Shown piece after piece: positions 7,549 to 26,849 of a DNA stretch of 28,562 bases; within the stretch, counting starts at the first letter, position 1; every line of letters starts with the position of its first letter. The DNA comes from a virus. The translations under genes and the position numbers were made by a program. The stretch spans positions 1 through 28,562 of IMG/VR virus record IMGVR_UViG_3300004097_000037; one strand, 5' to 3'. The notes beneath the pieces are model-generated. The model was not told the DNA's origin and made no database searches. It saw only the letters and a program-made list of their open reading frames with translations.

Positions 7549-8130
7549 TTATGATGCAATATCATTTAAGGTCGGTGCTGTTACACTTTCAGGTTTGTTA
7601 GTACTATCAGAACCCACAACCCAATCACTAAATGTGAACGTTGTATCAAATTCTAATACAGTATCAATTTGATCAGATCCCACGGTCATTTCACCAACAC
7701 CACTAACATAAACATTATGAAAAGTGTATTTTGCTGTTTCTACGCCCGCACTATCTAACTGTGATACCGATAATTCACCCATAACACTTGACGGATTTCC
7801 AGAATGTTCATTGTTTTGGAAGTGATCACAAGCTTTTAACCATGCTACCATATCACGACGTAAGCCATGATCTTCTGTAGTGTAAAAAGTTAACGTCCAT
7901 GAATTTGTGTACGCTGTATCTCCCGGAAGTGGTAGCTTACGACCTTGTGCAAACAATTCAATCATCCCCAATGTTACTTCGGGAAAAGTTGCAGATTTGC
8001 ATAACACTGCCGCATTTTCTAACAAACTAGTAGTTGATATTGTGCTTGGAATAGAAAAATTAATTAGATACTTTGATGCTCTCGCACCACTACCTATAGC
8101 TGATTTCAATTCTGCAATTTTATTAGACAT
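7549..8130 (-). CDS. 19: Major tail tube protein, gp19-like
   Basis: A 193-aa protein. The frame stays open to 8475, but the ATG at 8128-8130 is chosen: it has AAGGAAA upstream, lies 35 bases past a late promoter, and the upstream extension is a K/L-rich shadow of the acidic repeat gene. The sequence shows the usual tube-protein layout: MSNKIAELKSAIGSG at the N-terminus, KSATFPEVTLG, then GRKLPLPGDTAYTNSWTLTF with DMVAWLKACD, and at the C-terminus YTFHNVYVSGVG and LEFDTTFTFSDW. T4 gp19 (163 aa) stacks as hexameric rings to form the inner tube. Of the four tube-fold genes in the window this one sits in the main virion operon and has a promoter and upstream terminator of its own, so it is the best candidate for the major tube. 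Confidence 0.85.
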   Translation of the reverse strand: MSNKIAELKSAIGSGARASKYLINFSIPSTISTTSLLENAAVLCKSATFPEVTLGMIELFAQGRKLPLPGDTAYTNSWTLTFYTTEDHGLRRDMVAWLKACDHFQNNEHSGNPSSVMGELSVSQLDSAGVETAKYTFHNVYVSGVGEMTVGSDQIDTVLEFDTTFTFSDWVVGSDSTNKPESVTAPTLNDIAS

Positions 8131-8154
8131 ATTATTTCCTTTGTTTATTGTTAT

Positions 8155-8168
8155 ATAACATATGTTAT
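8155..8168. repeat. 14-bp palindrome at the tube-gene promoter
   Basis: ATAACATATGTTAT is a perfect palindrome that overlaps the late promoter box by three bases and covers the expected transcription start of the tail tube gene. Confidence 0.7.
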
Positions 8169-8173
8169 TTATA
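8166..8173 (-). promoter_or_regulatory. T4-type late promoter for the tail tube gene
   Basis: Exact TATAAATA on the minus strand, 35 bases upstream of the tube ATG, between a terminator and the gene. Confidence 0.75.
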
Positions 8174-8197
8174 CAATATAAACAATTTTGTCTAATT

Positions 8198-8226
8198 AAA
8201 AAAAAAAGAGCCATAAGGCTCTTTTT
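8198..8226 (-). terminator. Rho-independent terminator after the acidic repeat gene
   Basis: On the minus strand AAAAAGAGCC and GGCTCTTTTT pair as a 10-bp stem (8217-8226 with 8203-8212) around a four-base loop, followed by more T residues. It lies 26 bases past the stop of the acidic repeat gene and before the tube promoter. Confidence 0.85.
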
Positions 8227-8251
8227 ATGATAAGAATTTTTTAAGTTAAAA

Positions 8252-8737
8252 TTATTTAACTTCTTCAGTTTCAGGCTCTTTAACTTCTTCAGTTTCAGGT
8301 TCTTCGGCTTCAGCTTCAGTTTCAGGCTCTTTAACTTCTTCAGTTTCAGGCTCTTCGGCTTCAGTTCCTTCAGCTTCAGTTTCAGGCTCTTTAACTTCTT
8401 CAGTTTCAGGTTCTTCGGCTTCAGTTCCTTCAGCTTCAGTTTCAGGCTCTTTAACTTCTTCAGCGACTTTTTCAACTTTTACAGCTTCAACCACATCTAA
8501 AATATATGTAGCACGATCTGAACCGTGACGATTATTTGTTAAAAGACTAATTTCAAATTCACCTAAAGCCGCGGGTTGAAATTCTAAAACCGCATCAGAC
8601 GAAATAAGTGAACCACACATACGCCATGTGTAATCTAAAGCATCTTTGATTTTCGGATCAAATTTGTTAACTTTACCTACAGTAAATTTTAAACGTTCGG
8701 TTTTGTTTTGGATTATCGGTAAAATGATTTTACGCAT
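8252..8737 (-). CDS. Virion-operon protein with acidic 20-aa tandem repeats
   Basis: A 161-aa protein whose ATG overlaps the end of the preceding gene by eight bases. Residues 1-90 form a compact-looking domain (LKFTVGKVNKFDPKIKDALD, LEFQPAALGEFEISLLTNNR, ATYILDVVEAV) that I do not recognise. From about 94 to the end it is almost only E, P, T, A, K and V in a 20-residue repeat, EVKEPETEAEGTEAEEPETE: two full copies, one lacking GTEA, and a partial copy. The tail should be unstructured and very negative. Position between small terminase and tail tube suggests a structural or assembly role, for example a neck, tail-completion or decoration protein, but none can be claimed. Repeat number may vary between relatives. 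Confidence 0.75.
   Translation of the reverse strand: MRKIILPIIQNKTERLKFTVGKVNKFDPKIKDALDYTWRMCGSLISSDAVLEFQPAALGEFEISLLTNNRHGSDRATYILDVVEAVKVEKVAEEVKEPETEAEGTEAEEPETEEVKEPETEAEGTEAEEPETEEVKEPETEAEAEEPETEEVKEPETEEVK
8261..8463 (-). repeat. 60-bp tandem repeat array inside the acidic gene
   Basis: A 60-base unit encoding 20 residues is present about 3.4 times; one copy has an in-frame 12-base deletion. Copies are nearly identical at the DNA level, which points to recent duplication. Another reading frame over the same bases is open and gives a K/L-rich peptide. Confidence 0.85.
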
Positions 8738-13712: not shown

Positions 13713-14237
13713 CTATTTTTTTATTACAGGTGACATTGATTTAAATTTTACGGTAAACTCAGAAACTTGAGCCTCATTATTATTATTTATATCGAGATTA
13801 GAAATGCCCTCAATAAAACAATCGTTTAACGTCATCAATTCAGTATTAACTTCACCTTCATAATCGGCCTCTTTAATGATGTTAATTATTGAGCAAGCAT
13901 CATCAAAATACCAACCCGCTTGAGATCTATATGCTGTTAAAAATTTTCTGTACAAGTACATCATATCATAATCTCGAAATGTTATTGAGAATCGATATAA
14001 TTCGTCTTTACCGTTATGAATCCTGTATTGCCCGCCTATATAAACTTCGATAGGTGAATTACTAAAATCAGGCGTGTTTATAGATACGATATGTTGATTA
14101 ATATCCCTACCCTCTACGTCATCAACCCAACCTATCAATTTACCCATTTCTGAAGAAAATGATATTTGTACTTGGTACGTATTCGACATAGACCATTTTT
14201 TATTTATAATTGCCGAAATATCTGTTGAAAAAGCCAT
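13713..14237 (-). CDS. Tail tube-fold protein, minus-strand paralogue
   Basis: A 174-aa protein with AAAGGT upstream and half of a two-way late promoter 28 bases before the ATG. It shows the tube-fold layout: an N-terminal strand (NTYQVQISFSSEMG), SINTPDFSNSPIEVYIGG, LYRFSITFRDYDMMYLYRKF, and the C-terminal pattern LNDCFIEGISNLDI followed by SEFTVKF. These match, segment by segment, the gp19-like gene and the two plus-strand tube-fold genes. It heads the main late operon, just before the gp26-like pair, so it may be a special tube ring near the hub or the tail end (tube initiator or terminator) rather than the bulk tube. Its exact role cannot be read from sequence. Confidence 0.6.
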   Translation of the reverse strand: MAFSTDISAIINKKWSMSNTYQVQISFSSEMGKLIGWVDDVEGRDINQHIVSINTPDFSNSPIEVYIGGQYRIHNGKDELYRFSITFRDYDMMYLYRKFLTAYRSQAGWYFDDACSIINIIKEADYEGEVNTELMTLNDCFIEGISNLDINNNNEAQVSEFTVKFKSMSPVIKK

Positions 14238-14296: not shown

Positions 14297-15103
14297 ATGA
14301 GTTCAAATATACAGAATCTATTAGAGAAAAATTTAGGTGACGGTGGTAGAAGTACCAAATTTGATGCTATTTTTCAATTTACTTCTCAAAATCAGCCAGA
14401 TTCGGAATTTGTCGCGTCTTCAGTTAAAACTACGTCATTTCCGGGAAAGTCACATACCCCTATACACATAAAAATGGGCGGTCGACCTGTACCCGTTCGT
14501 GGTCATGTAAAGTATAGTCAAGAATGGTCGTGTACTTTTTACTTAACAGATAACCACGAATTGAAGAATGTATTCGAGTTGTGGCTTGAAGCACTTGATG
14601 AAAAACATCACTATAATGATAGTGTAGATGGTATGGACGCATTAATACAGCAACATAAATCTTATGGTTTTTATAGAGATATTAGTGTATACCAATTAAG
14701 TTTTGATGAGACTGAACAAATGTCAAAATATGAAATGCACAATGCTTTTCCTATTCGTATTTCGGAAGTTGATGTATCTTATGAGGGAACATCTAAAGTT
14801 TTAGAATTCACGGTAACTTTTGCGTTTACACATTATACGCATTCAGTAACTTCAGCGGATTCAGGTAATTTTTTAGATGGTATTATATCTAAGATACAAA
14901 GTAGTGTTAGTTCGACTATATCGAGTAATTTGACAGAATTCGCTAATCAACTTATATCAGGTGAAACGGTCGGTGATGTATCTAATATTTTTGCTAATGT
15001 AACGGGGTTATCTTCAGATACATCAACTTACAGTAAAATGTTTGATATGTTTAATACTGGTGGTGTGAATTCTGACAATATGCCTAATTCACTTAATAAA
15101 TAA
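14297..15103 (+). CDS. Tail tube-fold virion protein, plus-strand copy 1
   Basis: A 268-aa protein with TAAGGA upstream. Residues 20-195 follow the tube fold: STKFDAIFQFTSQNQ, TTSFPGKSHTPIHIKMGGRP, QEWSCTFYLTDNHELKNVFE with LWLEALDE, and then YEMHNAFPIRISEVDVSYEG with VLEFTVTFAFTHY. About 70 extra residues follow that are rich in S, T, N and G (for example SSVSSTISSNLTEFANQLIS) and carry no clear motif. It is larger than T4 gp19 (163 aa) and than the main tube gene here. It could be a minor tube ring, a tube-baseplate adapter or a decorated tube variant. Ten bases separate it from the next tube-fold gene, so the pair is cotranscribed. Confidence 0.65.
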   Translation: MSSNIQNLLEKNLGDGGRSTKFDAIFQFTSQNQPDSEFVASSVKTTSFPGKSHTPIHIKMGGRPVPVRGHVKYSQEWSCTFYLTDNHELKNVFELWLEALDEKHHYNDSVDGMDALIQQHKSYGFYRDISVYQLSFDETEQMSKYEMHNAFPIRISEVDVSYEGTSKVLEFTVTFAFTHYTHSVTSADSGNFLDGIISKIQSSVSSTISSNLTEFANQLISGETVGDVSNIFANVTGLSSDTSTYSKMFDMFNTGGVNSDNMPNSLNK

Positions 15104-15114
15104 GGTAGTAAAAT

Positions 15115-15822
15115 ATGAGTAAAACTATATCAGATCTTAAATCGTCAATAGGTGGCGGTTTAATGACAAATAAATATTTGGTTGAAATGACATCACCAAT
15201 ATTAACTATGGATGCTAATAAACTTAATATACTTTGTAATAAAGCTAGTTTTCCAGAAAGAACGATTGCAACAAATGAAATTTGGCGATACGGTCGTAAA
15301 TATGTTGTACGTGCTGAAACTACTTATAATGGTTCAATTACATTAGGATTCATAGATGACGATGAAGCGAATATTAGACAATTCTTTGACGCTTGGTTAA
15401 AGGTTGTTGATGATAGTGGTACATCAGCCGCGTTTGATCTATCGTCATATGAGGCCACTACGAGCGGCATTTTAGATATTGTAAGTAAATTGCAATCTGA
15501 TCCGTCGTCAATTGTACAAAGTTTACTAGATGATGATTTCGCGGATTCATTGGCTAGTTATCAGAATAGTTTTAATATTTGGGCGTTGAATAACAGTAAT
15601 GATAAGGTTTACGGTTACAAGTTACAAAACTGTTACCCAACTAGTATAAGTGGTGTAGATTTTAGCGACTCAGATTCTAATAAAGTGATGGAATTTACAG
15701 TAACATTTTCATATTCTGAATTTGAACCAATCAAAGATACTACTTTATTAGAAACAGTTGCGGATACGCTTATTGGTAATGTTGTTGATACCTCGATCAC
15801 TATGGAGGATATATTCGATTAA
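15115..15822 (+). CDS. Tail tube-fold virion protein, plus-strand copy 2
   Basis: A 235-aa protein with AAGGTAG upstream. It is the closest visible relative of the main tube protein: both begin with MS, then I-x-x-LKS-x-IG-x-G and KYL, and both have an LC-x-x-A-x-FPE segment, GRK, a TLxF strand and AWLK. The C-terminus has YKLQNCYPTSISGVDFSDSD and VMEFTVTFSYSEF. Between them is an insert of about 45 residues (SSYEATTSGILDIVSKLQSD) absent from the main tube protein. The similarity indicates duplication and divergence. The gene ends overlapping a convergent minus-strand gene by four bases. Role is inferred to be tube-related but specialised. Confidence 0.65.
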   Translation: MSKTISDLKSSIGGGLMTNKYLVEMTSPILTMDANKLNILCNKASFPERTIATNEIWRYGRKYVVRAETTYNGSITLGFIDDDEANIRQFFDAWLKVVDDSGTSAAFDLSSYEATTSGILDIVSKLQSDPSSIVQSLLDDDFADSLASYQNSFNIWALNNSNDKVYGYKLQNCYPTSISGVDFSDSDSNKVMEFTVTFSYSEFEPIKDTTLLETVADTLIGNVVDTSITMEDIFD

Positions 15823-17212: not shown

Positions 17213-18565
17213 TTACATGATATTTTTTAGTAACATTGCACTTTCTTTTTGAGCAAACATTTCTTCTAATGTATTGGTAGTATCTTTATCATTTCGCCAT
17301 TCGATCCAACGAGGATGTGATAAAGCGTAATGCTCATTGTTACGACCTTTTGTAATATCATTACAACGTGCAGTAAATACTTTACCGTTATATTTTTCGA
17401 AATTTGCACTAATTTCATCAAGTACTTTATCACTAAAACCACTAGCGAAACCTTTCACCGTACCTTCATCATTTGCAAATTCTAATGAACCTAATTTACC
17501 TGCGCGTTTAGTGCCTTTTTTACCCTCACGTTGACCAACAACACGGACTTCGACATCAATTTCAAGTTTCATTTTGAGTTGATCTGCACTATTCCCGTCT
17601 TTCATCAACATATGTTTGTTTTTAAGTACACCACCTTCTAAACCTTTTTGCATCCATTTTACACAATATTCCATAGCTTCAATTGCTGAATCAACTTCTA
17701 AACTTTCGATCATTTGAATATGTTTATAGTTGCCATTTTTCAGCAATTCTTCTAAAAGATTGCGACTATCAATATATTTAGTAGACGGCATATCACCTTT
17801 AACTTTATTTTTAGCTTTAGTGTATTCTTCTTCTGTGCAATATTCCCATACTGAATAGATTAATTTTTCATGCGGGCAATCATCTGAACCGATCATACCA
17901 TTACCAACAGAACGATTTGTAATACCTTCAACGGTTAATTCACCAAAGTAGTAACCATCAGGTAATGCATTAGCTTTAATTTCATCACCAATTAATGGGT
18001 ATTCGTAAATTTCACCAGAACGTGACATATACGTTGCAATACCATCTTTAACGTAAGTTTCGCGATATGTACCATCAGCTTTTAAATCTAAAATAGCGGG
18101 AAATTTAATTTTTTTAGCTGTTTCTTTATTAAATAAAAGACAACGTTTATAAACTGGTTTAACAATTAAACCTTTAAATACTTTATTGATAGTGGTACGA
18201 CCAACATTAATTTTCAAATCACGACCGATAATTAAACGAATTGTTTCGGCATCATTTGGGCGTAATTCATCAAGCATTTTACCTAAAAATTCGATAGCCG
18301 CATTACCTGTTAATTCGCGAGTTAAGAAACGATTTAAATGCTCTAATGCTTCATCTAACGTAATGTAAGGATCAATTTTAATTTCACGTGATGTTTTAAC
18401 ATTTTTCATAGTTATACCAAATGTGAAACGAGCTTTATCATACGTTAATTCTAGAACGCGTTTGAATTGTTCGTGATCTTTGTATTTTTTTAATTTTGCT
18501 AATTTGTCATTAGACGAATTTGTCTCATTTAAATCTGCAATGATGTGGTGAATTTGAATTGTCAT
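17213..18565 (-). CDS. 30: ATP-dependent DNA ligase, T4 gp30-like
   Basis: A 450-aa ligase with AAAGGTAAT upstream. It joins nicks in duplex DNA during replication, repair and recombination. The nucleotidyltransferase motifs are clear: motif I K-A-D-G at 162-165 (Lys162 takes the AMP), motif III TYMSRSG near 178-184, motif IV FGELTVEG at 207-214, an EGGVLKN segment, and motif V around MKLEIDVEVRVVG. The N-terminal 140 residues (for example LRPNDAETIRLIIGRDLKIN) match the helical domain of T4 ligase. T4 gp30 is 487 aa with adenylated Lys159, so size and site agree. It is transcribed divergently from the T5 A1-like gene, with a sigma70-like promoter, as expected for an early or middle gene. Confidence 0.93.
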   Translation of the reverse strand: MTIQIHHIIADLNETNSSNDKLAKLKKYKDHEQFKRVLELTYDKARFTFGITMKNVKTSREIKIDPYITLDEALEHLNRFLTRELTGNAAIEFLGKMLDELRPNDAETIRLIIGRDLKINVGRTTINKVFKGLIVKPVYKRCLLFNKETAKKIKFPAILDLKADGTYRETYVKDGIATYMSRSGEIYEYPLIGDEIKANALPDGYYFGELTVEGITNRSVGNGMIGSDDCPHEKLIYSVWEYCTEEEYTKAKNKVKGDMPSTKYIDSRNLLEELLKNGNYKHIQMIESLEVDSAIEAMEYCVKWMQKGLEGGVLKNKHMLMKDGNSADQLKMKLEIDVEVRVVGQREGKKGTKRAGKLGSLEFANDEGTVKGFASGFSDKVLDEISANFEKYNGKVFTARCNDITKGRNNEHYALSHPRWIEWRNDKDTTNTLEEMFAQKESAMLLKNIM

Positions 18566-22118: not shown

Positions 22119-22940
22119 ATGAAATCTTATAGGATTGAACACAGATTGACGCGAAAATGCAACTATTCATGTAGTTATTGTTATGAAGTATTTGACGATA
22201 CTTTTGATAATATAAAAGTCGATTTTGAAGGATTAAGATATTATATTGAATCATTTAAAGATACAATTATCGAATATAACATTATAGGTGGTGAACCAAC
22301 TAGGCACCCACAATTTAAAAAGCTGATCGAATTTCTTTTAGAATTTGACAATCTTCACATTTTGATCACTAGTAACGGTTCAAAATCATTAAAGTTTCTT
22401 AATTATATTAGTACCGATAGGTTAAAAATATTATTCAGTTATCACAACTCTGATACTAATATCGACGATTTTATGGTTAAAGTTTCCGAAATTTCAAGCC
22501 ATGTAAAGTGTGTTAATGTCGTGGATAATCCACAATTGAACAATAATGCATATGAAGAATATCACGAATTGAAACGACAACTTTTAGAATATGATATTGA
22601 ATTGCATTTATACCCTGAACTCGGTAAACTTGAAGAAAAACCAAATGAAAGAAGTCAAGTTATTAATATACAGGAACCATCAGTATTTGAGGACGTAAAA
22701 AAATTGTGGTATTATAAGAATGGTTTATATCAATCTTGGTTAGATGATTCTTGTAAAACTAAAGGTAGACGATGCAGTATAACAGAACATGAAAGTGTTG
22801 TGCAAGATAATAAAATATACCCTTGTGTGTATTTTGCTAATAAAGAAAAGAGTGGTGTAGACTTTAAAGATTGCGAATCTATAAAGCCTAAATTTTGTCG
22901 CTTTGAATATTGTTTATTTAATGCTCAATTTGTTGATTAG
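22119..22940 (+). CDS. Radical SAM enzyme with Cys-rich (SPASM-like) C-terminus
   Basis: A 273-aa protein with AAAAGGTTAAG upstream. Residues 14-21 read CNYSCSYC, the C-x3-C-x2-C motif that binds the radical SAM 4Fe-4S cluster, followed by Tyr. IIGGEP (55-60) is the SAM-binding GGE motif, then HILITSNGS and KILFSYH fit further barrel strands. Six Cys lie in the last 65 residues (212, 219, 236, 252, 260, 265), typical of SPASM/twitch domains that hold auxiliary clusters in peptide- and protein-modifying enzymes. Substrate is unknown. It is a single plus-strand gene between the adhesin unit and the spanins and overlaps the outer spanin gene tail to tail by 23 bases. It is not QueE-like by the spacing and residues around the motif. 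Confidence 0.85.
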   Translation: MKSYRIEHRLTRKCNYSCSYCYEVFDDTFDNIKVDFEGLRYYIESFKDTIIEYNIIGGEPTRHPQFKKLIEFLLEFDNLHILITSNGSKSLKFLNYISTDRLKILFSYHNSDTNIDDFMVKVSEISSHVKCVNVVDNPQLNNNAYEEYHELKRQLLEYDIELHLYPELGKLEEKPNERSQVINIQEPSVFEDVKKLWYYKNGLYQSWLDDSCKTKGRRCSITEHESVVQDNKIYPCVYFANKEKSGVDFKDCESIKPKFCRFEYCLFNAQFVD

Positions 22941-23625: not shown

Positions 23626-24741
23626 TTACCCTTTTAATTTGACTATTCTAGTAAATAGTTCTTTGTTATTAACAATATCTAATTTAGCCAATGCATCATA
23701 TACTTTTATGTGTTTTTCTTTTATGCCTTTCAATTGCGGCACTAACAACTCAATGTTTAATGAGTAAAGGTATATTAAAAGATATTTATACTCTAATCCA
23801 TTATCACACATGTACAAAATTTGTTCACATATGTTAATTTTAGAAAATGATTCTGTATCTTCCATGAACAATTTAACTTGTTCAGAATATTGGATATGGG
23901 TTGCTTTATGAGATTCTAATTTTGTAATTAGATTTATAACGTCGTTGTGATCCATTTGCGAATTATCCATAATATAAGAATAAAGCATATAACCGACAAC
24001 TTTACCTACTTTACCTTTAATAAAAATAAGTAATTGTTCGTTGCTTATTAATCCACCTTCATAAAAGTCAACGTACATTGATACTTTACAAAGTGATCTA
24101 GGTGATGAACCACAACGGTCAAATTCTGACGCTGTATTATCATATTCAGGTGTGAAGTGCAAATAATCTGGATTAGCTGTAATGAAGTTTATAATATTGG
24201 TGTTGATGTTCTGTGTTTTAGCCCATTTAAGCCAAATGTTTGCATCGACTTCAACGTCTAATTTTAAAAATCTATCCAATAATGCGGGATCTAATTCTAA
24301 TGTTTGGTAGTCGCTTGATGGGTTAATTGCGGATATAATGAAGGTTTTTAGCTCACCTTTTGGTAAATTGTGATCGTGTATTCTACCGTCTAAAACTAAC
24401 TGTAGAATTGATTGTAGAACGTCTGGGTGCGCACGGTTTAATTCATCTAAAAATAATACACTCTTAACGCCTCGGTTTTCTGCGCTTATTATTCGATCCA
24501 ACCATTCTGGTCTTGTCCAATAAGTTACCGTTTCACCATCTACGTCTTTGTTTTTAGGTAGACCAATTAAGTCACCGATTTCTTGAGTACTTAAAAATAA
24601 CGGTTCAAAGTGGTATTTTTCTTCTATAGTGAATTGTTCAACTACTGAACTTTTTCCGATCCCATGTTTAGACGATATCAATACAGAATCATCATTTTTA
24701 CAAGCGAAAGGAAAAAGTTCTTTACAAAATTGTATATTCAT
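23626..24741 (-). CDS. MoxR-type AAA+ ATPase
   Basis: A 371-aa protein with TAGGT before its ATG and a late promoter 18 bases upstream. The P-loop reads SSKHGIGKSS (23-32); the first Gly of the usual Walker A is Ser here, as in some relatives. Walker B is VLFLDELNRAHPDV (95-108). Other family signs are DLIGLP, WTRPEWL, QLVLDGRIHDHNLP, a sensor segment FIISAINP, and LDPALLDRFLKLDV with a likely Arg finger. MoxR ATPases remodel partner proteins, often with a VWA-domain partner; none is present in the window. In T4-like phages related ATPases occur without known targets. Late-type promoter and spanin neighbours suggest a role late in infection. Confidence 0.85.
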   Translation of the reverse strand: MNIQFCKELFPFACKNDDSVLISSKHGIGKSSVVEQFTIEEKYHFEPLFLSTQEIGDLIGLPKNKDVDGETVTYWTRPEWLDRIISAENRGVKSVLFLDELNRAHPDVLQSILQLVLDGRIHDHNLPKGELKTFIISAINPSSDYQTLELDPALLDRFLKLDVEVDANIWLKWAKTQNINTNIINFITANPDYLHFTPEYDNTASEFDRCGSSPRSLCKVSMYVDFYEGGLISNEQLLIFIKGKVGKVVGYMLYSYIMDNSQMDHNDVINLITKLESHKATHIQYSEQVKLFMEDTESFSKINICEQILYMCDNGLEYKYLLIYLYSLNIELLVPQLKGIKEKHIKVYDALAKLDIVNNKELFTRIVKLKG

Positions 24742-24934: not shown

Positions 24935-25354
24935 TTAACCTTTATAATTATCTAATTTTATACTATTAAGAATATTGAACTTTTGTCTTTCTAAAGTTTC
25001 TTCAGGCACATTGTGAATGCTCGAATTACCGTGACGATTTTCTACAATTATAGAAACCAATTCAGCACCATAATCATCAGCAATCTTTTGATAAGGTTTA
25101 ATTTCTTTTTCTGAAGTAGACGTATTATGAACGATCACATTTGAATAACCAATTTCAAAATATTGTTTGGTCTTATACATGCACCATTTATGAGCATTGT
25201 GTAACTTACTAACATCCCAATTATAAACACCGTCGGTATAAAAATAATCATCAGCGCATACACTGATACTATTAGGTATCATTTCTAGTGTTTTTGCTAG
25301 GGTAGTTTTTCCACTACCACTAACACCACGAATTAATATTAATTTTTGTGTCAT
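24935..25354 (-). CDS. P-loop polynucleotide kinase-like protein (AAA_33 / N4BP2-like)
   Basis: A 139-aa protein. The frame opens earlier, inside the RNA ligase gene, but the ATG at 25354 begins one base after the ligase stop, has AAGGTAAA upstream and puts the first strand next to the P-loop. Motifs: Walker A GVSGSGKTT (10-18), CADDYFY (33-39) as the usual substrate-side DD-Y-F, and a helix with AHKWC (54-58). These fit the small kinase family near T4 polynucleotide kinase and mammalian N4BP2. Such enzymes phosphorylate 5'-OH ends of RNA or DNA. No phosphatase domain is attached, unlike T4 Pnk. Lying right after an RNA ligase and a phosphoesterase, it likely supplies the 5'-phosphate in RNA repair. 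Confidence 0.75.
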   Translation of the reverse strand: MTQKLILIRGVSGSGKTTLAKTLEMIPNSISVCADDYFYTDGVYNWDVSKLHNAHKWCMYKTKQYFEIGYSNVIVHNTSTSEKEIKPYQKIADDYGAELVSIIVENRHGNSSIHNVPEETLERQKFNILNSIKLDNYKG

Positions 25355-25355
25355 A

Positions 25356-26246
25356 TTATTTACCTTCAAAGTAATCTGTAACAATTTTACGACGTTCATT
25401 TTCTGAAAATTCATTCCAATCTTCAGGCGTGTATTTGTCAATTACAAATTCATGCAAATCATAAAACTCTTCATCAATTTGTTGTTTGAATTTTTTAGGC
25501 TCATTAAACATTAAATTTGTACGCGTTTTACCCATACGTAATAAAGCTTTAGTAACTAGGTAATGTGGTGATTTAATTTTAACAAGTGTTACACCGTATG
25601 TGTTACGGATCATAAAACCTTCATGCTCAACATAGGTATCTAAATCGTCAATAGAATCATACCATTCATGATGTGGACGCATAGCACCTAAAAATTCGGC
25701 ATGTTTATCTAATAACTCTTCAGTAACTAAATTATTTTCGGTATTCCATTGTGCACCAATAAGATAAATTCCGTATTCTTCGGGTACGATGTGTTGATCA
25801 CTTTCATCACAAACTTCAAAACTATATGTTACATTTTCGATCAGTTTATCAGTGTTTAATGTATCAACCCATTTTTGGCCTAACGCAACAAAATCTGAAT
25901 CTAATGTTCCTGTAGTTGAAACAATAATACCGTATTTTTCAGTTTTAGTGACACAAAGCATAAAACCGTTAACTTTTACGATTGCTTGGACACGTATATC
26001 TTTTGGTACAGTTTTCTTGTTTTCACCTAAATTAAATACTTTCTTAAAAGGATTAACAATAACATTGTGATTTTCGTCGATTACAGTCCCACGACAATGT
26101 AAAAGTCGAGCATCTAAACGCCATAGGTTTTTAAAAAATACCTTTTTAGTATATTTCAACACACTTAAACCCGCATATCGTCCTTCGGTATAAGTTTTCT
26201 TTTTAACTAACCCTTGTTCGACTAAATCGTCTACATTCAATTTCAT
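25356..26246 (-). CDS. RNA ligase (T4 Rnl1-like nucleotidyltransferase)
   Basis: A 296-aa ligase with AAGGTTATAATT upstream. Motif I is K-V-N-G at 91-94, Lys91 being the AMP site. Just before it, CRGTVID and NPFKKVFNLGE (51-75) match the RG and PF-KFFN-GE pattern of Rnl1-type RNA ligases. Motif III is TYSFEVCDESDQHIV (140-154), motif IV is HEGFMIRN (208-215) and motif V is LVKIKSPHYL (221-230). It seals 3'-OH and 5'-phosphate RNA ends using ATP. T4 Rnl1 is 374 aa, so the C-terminal specificity domain is smaller here. The gene sits between a kinase gene and a phosphoesterase gene with gaps of one and 15 bases, an RNA-repair arrangement. Confidence 0.85.
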   Translation of the reverse strand: MKLNVDDLVEQGLVKKKTYTEGRYAGLSVLKYTKKVFFKNLWRLDARLLHCRGTVIDENHNVIVNPFKKVFNLGENKKTVPKDIRVQAIVKVNGFMLCVTKTEKYGIIVSTTGTLDSDFVALGQKWVDTLNTDKLIENVTYSFEVCDESDQHIVPEEYGIYLIGAQWNTENNLVTEELLDKHAEFLGAMRPHHEWYDSIDDLDTYVEHEGFMIRNTYGVTLVKIKSPHYLVTKALLRMGKTRTNLMFNEPKKFKQQIDEEFYDLHEFVIDKYTPEDWNEFSENERRKIVTDYFEGK

Positions 26247-26261
26247 AATTATAACCTTATT

Positions 26262-26849
26262 TTAATGTCCGTCTACTGTAACAACTTTTTTAGATAATGC
26301 AATATCTAATACATCTTTTAATTTCATTATTTTACCGAAATTATCATAACCTACATCAACCTGTCTACCAACACCTTGATATTTTCCATGACAGTGACCA
26401 AATAATTGAACACTACCATAGTGTTGTTTATTCCAAGCAGTTAAAGGATAATGCATCATACACACTAATTTTTTATCAACTTTTACTTCTAAATAATAAT
26501 GCTCGTCTATATTAATACTATCAAACATTCTATCATGATTGCCGCGTATAAACACTATATTACCATTAAGATCATTCAATATTTCTAATGTCTCTTCTAA
26601 TGAACCAAACGAAAAGTCCCCTAAAAAGAAAATTACGTCATCAACCCCGACTGTTTCATTCCAGTGTTTTACAATAGCCGCATTCATTTCTTCGACATTT
26701 TCAAACAGTCGAGTTTTAGGTGCGTGTTTTAGAATGTTTTTGTGGAAGAAATGTAAATCACTTGTAATAAAGTAATTCACATCCCCATCTAAGTCCAATT
26801 TTTGACCGTGTGTAACGATACGATAATTTGGCAGTTGTGATTCTCTCAT
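26262..26849 (-). CDS. Calcineurin-like metallophosphoesterase
   Basis: A 195-aa protein with CAGGTAAT upstream. All metal-binding motifs are present in order: SDLHFFH (30-36), LGDFSFG (76-82), GNHD (103-106), MMHYP (131-135) and GHCHG (151-155). Together with LFENVEEMNAAIVKHWNETV these place it in the small phage/bacterial family of stand-alone phosphoesterases near YfcE. Substrate cannot be read from the motifs. In bacterial Pnkp, a domain of this fold removes 2',3'-cyclic phosphate and 3'-phosphate from broken RNA; the adjacent ligase and kinase genes make the same role likely here. It could equally act on nucleotides or DNA. Confidence 0.88.
   Translation of the reverse strand: MRESQLPNYRIVTHGQKLDLDGDVNYFITSDLHFFHKNILKHAPKTRLFENVEEMNAAIVKHWNETVGVDDVIFFLGDFSFGSLEETLEILNDLNGNIVFIRGNHDRMFDSINIDEHYYLEVKVDKKLVCMMHYPLTAWNKQHYGSVQLFGHCHGKYQGVGRQVDVGYDNFGKIMKLKDVLDIALSKKVVTVDGH

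Follow-up and report, generated by a model that had tools for sequence, protein, structure and literature searches.

A probable RNA repair cassette with a calcineurin-like phosphoesterase, found in a myophage and in many other large phages

Overview

We have analysed a 28.5 kb fragment of a myophage from IMG/VR, which we will call the window. It contains three neighbouring genes, which quite probably constitute a single phage operon devoted to 5'-3' RNA repair: a calcineurin-like phosphoesterase (CPE) would heal the 3' end of the broken RNA, a small kinase would heal its 5' end and an Rnl1-type ligase would seal both; tRNA is the likely substrate. We also favour, with less confidence, a wider reading: CPEs similar to the Aquifex protein AQ_1665 may be an unrecognised family of RNA 3'-end healing enzymes, and together with the small kinase they may form a portable module for Rnl1 or Rnl2 ligases, interchangeable with the HAD_PNKP phosphatase across large phages.

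Many large phages have such a cassette, and closely similar ones have already been described; that of the window is not new in kind. What we add is that the CPE is a near-constant and tightly linked member, mostly independent of sirtuins, retained when the ligase is exchanged, and a candidate for the missing 3' step.

The cassette in the window

The initial annotation described a kinase, an Rnl1-type ligase and a phosphoesterase as adjacent genes, which is confirmed by the coordinates, Pfam and PHROGs: 15 bases separate the CPE from the ligase and a single base separates the ligase from the kinase. The features of interest are:

26262-26849, minus strand: CPE gene, 195 aa; predicted RNA 3'-end healing enzyme (removal of 3'-phosphate or 2',3'-cyclic phosphate)
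26751-26759, minus strand: CPE metal motif I, DLH (D31-H33); D31 and H33 invariant in the alignment
26388-26399, minus strand: CPE metal motif GHCH (G151-H154); G151, H152 and H154 invariant in the alignment
25356-26246, minus strand: gene of the Rnl1-type ATP-dependent RNA ligase, 296 aa; predicted sealing enzyme
25974-25976, minus strand: codon of K91, predicted AMP-accepting lysine (KVNG); invariant, aligned to the KEDG motif of T4 Rnl1
24935-25354, minus strand: gene of the P-loop polynucleotide 5'-kinase, 139 aa from ATG; kinase domain only, with no phosphatase domain
25304-25327, minus strand: kinase P-loop GVSGSGKT (G10-T17); G13, G15 and K16 invariant in the alignment
17213-18565: ATP-dependent DNA ligase, separate from the cassette

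The kinase ORF could also start at a TTG and reach 25441, but this longer form overlaps the ligase and need not be assumed. Each of the three starts is preceded by a Shine-Dalgarno-like AGG or AAGG, as read by eye, so that translation of the CPE, ligase and kinase as one operon is likely. A promoter scan gave fewer sites than in shuffled sequences, and we claim no promoter for the cassette. All active-site motifs are intact; no gene of the three is a remnant. Around the cassette we find genes for a baseplate protein, the major head protein, head maturation, a DNA end protector and several tail tubes. There is no tRNA gene in the window; near other cassettes the presence of tRNA genes is patchy and does not discriminate.

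Ligase and kinase

The ligase belongs to RNA_lig_T4_1 (PF09511, 2.1e-13 in Pfam) and to PHROG 562, at about 1e-47 or better. No solved structure was matched by phmmer with the window sequence alone; a profile search succeeded and matched T4 Rnl1 (2C5U) with 1.9e-22. We have aligned the cassette proteins with those of phages from Vibrio, Aeromonas, Acinetobacter, Escherichia, Klebsiella, Erwinia and Pseudomonas hosts. The residues K91, G94, F143-E144, E209-G210, K223 and K225, which correspond to the nucleotidyltransferase motifs of an ATP-dependent RNA ligase, are invariant in this alignment. The profile aligns only with residues 48-283 of the 375 of T4 Rnl1. The last 90 residues or so of the T4 enzyme, which are tied to its tRNA specificity, are left uncovered by this alignment.

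The kinase is assigned to AAA_33 (PF13671, 1.5e-7 in Pfam) and to PHROG 2071, also at about 1e-47 or better. Residue D35 is kept alongside the P-loop in the phage alignment. When its profile is compared with all PDB sequences, T4 Pnk (1LTQ) comes first with 1.4e-7, followed by the kinase of Clostridium thermocellum Pnkp (4GP7), a fungal kinase (9D8A) and, lower, Pnkp1. The predicted model has a pLDDT of 91; it superposes on T4 Pnk (1RPZ) with Z 16.1 and rmsd 2.7 over 134 residues, and on the C. thermocellum kinase with Z 15.2. By its modelled fold and its intact P-loop the protein belongs to the polynucleotide 5'-kinases. No HAD_PNKP domain was detected in the window by a Pfam scan, which does detect it in Streptomyces phage EGole.

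Several observations on the annotation of these proteins may be added. In PADLOC the ligase and the CPE have no match; the kinase (24938-25354) resembles the AAA part of the model CARF_PDDEXK_AAA (3.4e-11). Some public labels are misleading: one protein with only the kinase (L011:6001-6414) is called '3'-phosphatase, 5'-polynucleotide kinase', and a CPE (L022:3153-3722) is called MutT/Nudix phosphohydrolase. In Vibrio phage Kuja (L017:4998-6041) the kinase is prolonged at its C-terminus by about 200 aa with no family assigned, and is annotated as 'DNA ligase'.

The phosphoesterase

The CPE is a member of Metallophos (PF00149, 2.8e-6 in Pfam) and of PHROG 547 (2e-51). The ligands of its two metals, D31, H33, D78, N104, H133, H152 and H154, are invariant or nearly so in the phage alignment. 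Its profile matches Aquifex AQ_1665 (1XM7) with 1.1e-23 among PDB sequences, and the AlphaFold model (pLDDT 95) has the same protein as its best fold match, with Z 16.7 and rmsd 2.6 over 158 residues; LpxH, YfcE and others follow with lower scores. The CPE thus belongs with the AQ_1665-like calcineurin phosphoesterases. AQ_1665 is its sole close structural relative and its function is not known.

The motif GDxVDRG is characteristic of the Pnkp-type phosphatase. The CPE has GDFSFG in its place and its fold is much closer to 1XM7 than to the phosphatase of C. thermocellum Pnkp (4J6O, Z 7.8), so that we reject a Pnkp-type phosphatase. The structural comparison with Pnkp suggested in the initial annotation therefore gives a divided answer: the wide superfamily is the same, but the subfamily is another one.

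Conservation of the cassette in phages

We have searched 50,697 phage records with tblastn and found the ligase in 704, the kinase in 613 and the CPE in 1455. Outside Streptomyces the kinase and the ligase have nearly equal numbers of records in each host genus: 194 and 195 in Escherichia, 173 and 175 in Pseudomonas, 36 and 36 in Klebsiella. The ligase loci of IMG/VR form 45 clusters at 70% identity, and we have counted the 38 which are flanked on each side by 3 kb or more. Within 3 kb of the ligase there is a CPE in 33 of them, a kinase in 32 and both in 29, which contradicts the possibility that the three genes rarely co-occur.

The median gap between ligase and CPE is 211 bases. The order of genes is variable: in the 38 clusters a CPE upstream with a kinase downstream is about as frequent as the reverse, and other orders are also present. 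Vibrio phages VnaP and 184E37.3a, Aeromonas phage phiA009 and Escherichia phage ESCO13 share the exact order of the window, CPE-ligase-kinase. In the Vequintavirus FV3 the ligase has the opposite orientation. In Vibrio phage K354 the ligase and the kinase are separated by an endonuclease gene of the opposite strand (L019:5850-7034), likely a homing insertion.

The gene distances of the cassette members are correlated, with Mantel r of 0.54-0.70, a value reached in none of 2000 permutations. That dozens of phage lineages have the trio gathered within a few kb is not due to chance, and the conservation of linkage in spite of rearranged order points to selection for keeping the three genes together. 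We could not trace a bacterial origin: in the bacterial genomes scanned the kinase gave only ten loci, none of which has the ligase or the CPE of the cassette nearby.

Exchange of ligases and, possibly, of 3'-end enzymes

In six loci a single ORF of about 430 aa encodes a fusion of the kinase and Rnl1 (L053, L175, L176, L178, L180 and L181, the last five being close relatives). These fusion loci have no CPE nearby and no 3'-healing enzyme was identified in them.

Some kinase-centred loci with a CPE have no Rnl1 beside them. We have searched 13 whole records of this type for Rnl2 (PF09414), and in nine of them a ligase of the Rnl2 family is encoded no more than 2 kb from the kinase (L042, L043, L046, L059, L063, L067, L080, L082 and L089). 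Since the CPE and the kinase are found beside Rnl2 as well as Rnl1, they seem to be a healing module which can be used with either ligase.

None of the 24 records which bear the CPE cassette contains HAD_PNKP, the T4 Pnkp phosphatase. It is present in 4 of about 20 records with kinase and ligase which have no CPE: a stand-alone HAD_PNKP gene adjoins the ligase or the kinase in L041, L077 and L086, and in EGole the domain is fused to the kinase. Most cassettes without CPE do not show HAD_PNKP either. The contrast is modest (one-sided Fisher about 0.04, from a hand count which ignores relatedness), so that alternation between CPE and HAD_PNKP is suggestive, not strong.

We have also counted the enzymes which might act on a 2'-phosphate. 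Sir2 is found in 6 of the 24 cassette phages and KptA in none; a route through phage enzymes of this kind is therefore not general. From these counts we infer that a CPE of the window type would have to complete the 3' end alone, unless a host enzyme is involved. The predicted cyclic-phosphate enzyme cRec adjoins the ligase in three loci without CPE (L069, L107 and L088); it is also found alongside the CPE in KB57, FV3 and L155.

Proposed mechanism and alternatives

In the mechanism that we propose, the CPE would clear the 3' end of the broken RNA, converting a 2',3'-cyclic phosphate or a 3'-phosphate into hydroxyls. The kinase would add a phosphate to the 5'-OH end and the Rnl1-type ligase would then join the healed ends, using ATP. 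The scheme resembles that of T4 Pnkp and Rnl1, except that a separately encoded calcineurin-like enzyme stands in for the HAD phosphatase half of T4 Pnkp. The substrate would be tRNA cleaved by host anticodon nucleases; an anti-defence role is plausible but less well supported, given the lack of a tRNA gene in the window and the uncovered C-terminal part of T4 Rnl1. RNA repair by the linked genes, as suggested in the initial annotation, is well supported by the catalytic motifs, fold matches, linkage, fusions and ligase exchange. Healing of the RNA 3' end is the most likely role of the CPE, judging from its linkage, its retention when Rnl2 replaces Rnl1 and the presence of HAD_PNKP in some records without CPE and in none of the 24 with it.

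The CPE family is, however, broader than the cassette and has further roles. A CPE is present in Vibrio phage D308 and in Rhizobium phage RHph_Y65, while Rnl1, Rnl2 and a cassette-type kinase were not found in their whole records. In ValKK3 the CPE adjoins anaerobic nucleotide reductase genes, distant from the Pnkp and Rnl1 of the same phage, and in Stenotrophomonas phage BUCT608 a CPE and HAD_PNKP coexist at a distance of about 1.3 kb. CPEs which, as in D308 and RHph_Y65, have neither ligase nor this kinase would fit an enzyme that hydrolyses nucleotides or NAD derivatives, for example ADP-ribose cyclic phosphate or an alarm nucleotide, in a counter-defence island where only the kinase and the ligase mend RNA. 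Genes for Nampt/PRPP-synthase, Macro, Sir2 or nucleotide pyrophosphohydrolase are often found near the cassettes, the fold neighbours of the CPE include nucleotide hydrolases, and ADPr>P processing has been named as an option (Iyer et al. 2022, PMC9503650). We consider this alternative unlikely, although more probable than the two that follow. Kinase and ligase are the constant neighbours of the CPE, which stays with the kinase when the ligase is of the Rnl2 family; an RNA phosphatase, HAD_PNKP, occurs in some cassettes which have no CPE; and if the CPE is set aside most of these phages have no identified enzyme for healing the 3' end.

The CPE might also only open the 2',3'-cyclic phosphate to a 2'-phosphate, to be removed later by a sirtuin or a KptA-like enzyme. 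Removal by sirtuin has been suggested for V5/Mydo-like phages, where Sir2 and cRec genes adjoin the cassette (Iyer et al. 2022, PMC9503650), and a host KptA could help in some hosts. The low frequency of Sir2 and the absence of KptA in the 24 cassette phages make this route improbable, and no sirtuin was seen beside the cassette of the window. Finally, the label 'RNA ligase and tail fiber protein attachment catalyst', given to PHROG 562 and in many records, is inherited from T4 gp63. That the ligase acts mainly in fibre attachment, or that these enzymes repair DNA, is hardly credible: the window ligase has all the nucleotidyltransferase motifs, its partners are a kinase and a phosphoesterase and not fibre genes, and the phage has a separate DNA ligase. 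We reject the tail-fibre function as an inherited label.

Comparison with known systems

The repair of PrrC-cut tRNA by T4 Pnkp and Rnl1 is established (PMC3400036). The window shares with T4 the fold of the 5'-kinase, the type of ligase and, as predicted, the overall reaction. In T4, however, kinase and 3'-phosphatase make up one protein, the latter as a HAD domain, while the window has a kinase of 139 aa alone and a separate calcineurin-like gene; it is not a T4 Pnkp proper, which has HAD_PNKP fused at its C-terminus. The distinct make-up claimed in the initial annotation holds with respect to T4, but it is not new, as hundreds of phages have it and related versions have been published (PMC9503650, PMC12846349).

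The likeness to bacterial Pnkp, also proposed there, is only functional. The kinase has a similar fold and both phosphatases are calcineurin-like in the wide sense, but the Pnkp of C. thermocellum is a single fused protein which acts with Hen1 and has a ligase of a different family. The window has three separate genes, an Rnl1-type ligase and a 1XM7-like CPE of another subfamily without GDxVDRG; we do not include it in the Pnkp/Hen1 group.

In V5/Mydo-like phages the neighbourhood has been described as containing a sirtuin, a T4-like tRNA ligase, cRec, a nucleotide kinase, MazG and 'occasionally' a calcineurin-like phosphoesterase (Iyer et al. 2022, PMC9503650). The same ligase, kinase and CPE families are present in the loci of FV3 and KB57. 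In contrast, we see no sirtuin in the window, it is absent from most cassette phages, and the CPE is near-constant rather than occasional. Surveys of jumbo phages have also reported kinases and ligases and, in a few phages, calcineurin-like phosphatases (PMC7824862).

In the Pakpunavirus Adele (2025) a kinase and two RNA ligases have been proposed to mend cleaved tRNA, and the kinase has no 3'-phosphatase (PMC12846349). As in the window, a polynucleotide 5'-kinase is combined with an RNA ligase, and those of EPA1, a phage of the same genus, are homologous to ours. A CPE lies nearby in EPA1 (L013) and is our candidate for the missing 3'-phosphatase. Provided that RNA 3' ends are indeed healed by the CPE, it would supply the step missing from the Adele kinase and the repair pathway would be complete in hundreds of sequenced phages, several of which are therapy candidates. 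Phages would then be shown to reassemble the repair pathway of T4 out of interchangeable components, and the cassette would offer a testable gene set against tRNA-cutting defences.

Other features of the window

Immediately downstream of the cassette there is a MoxR/AAA-type ATPase (23626-24741, minus strand, PHROG 1297). On the opposite strand to the cassette a radical SAM protein (22119-22937, plus strand) is weakly similar to prokaryotic viperins: the NCBIfam match of 5e-11 is far under the cut-off, and PADLOC gives pVip with 1.6e-13. The window also has four tail-tube-like genes of PHROG 45, at 7549-8475, 13713-14237, 14297-15103 and 15115-15822, two of them on the plus strand; a triplicated tail-tube locus has been described in the Adele paper (PMC12846349).
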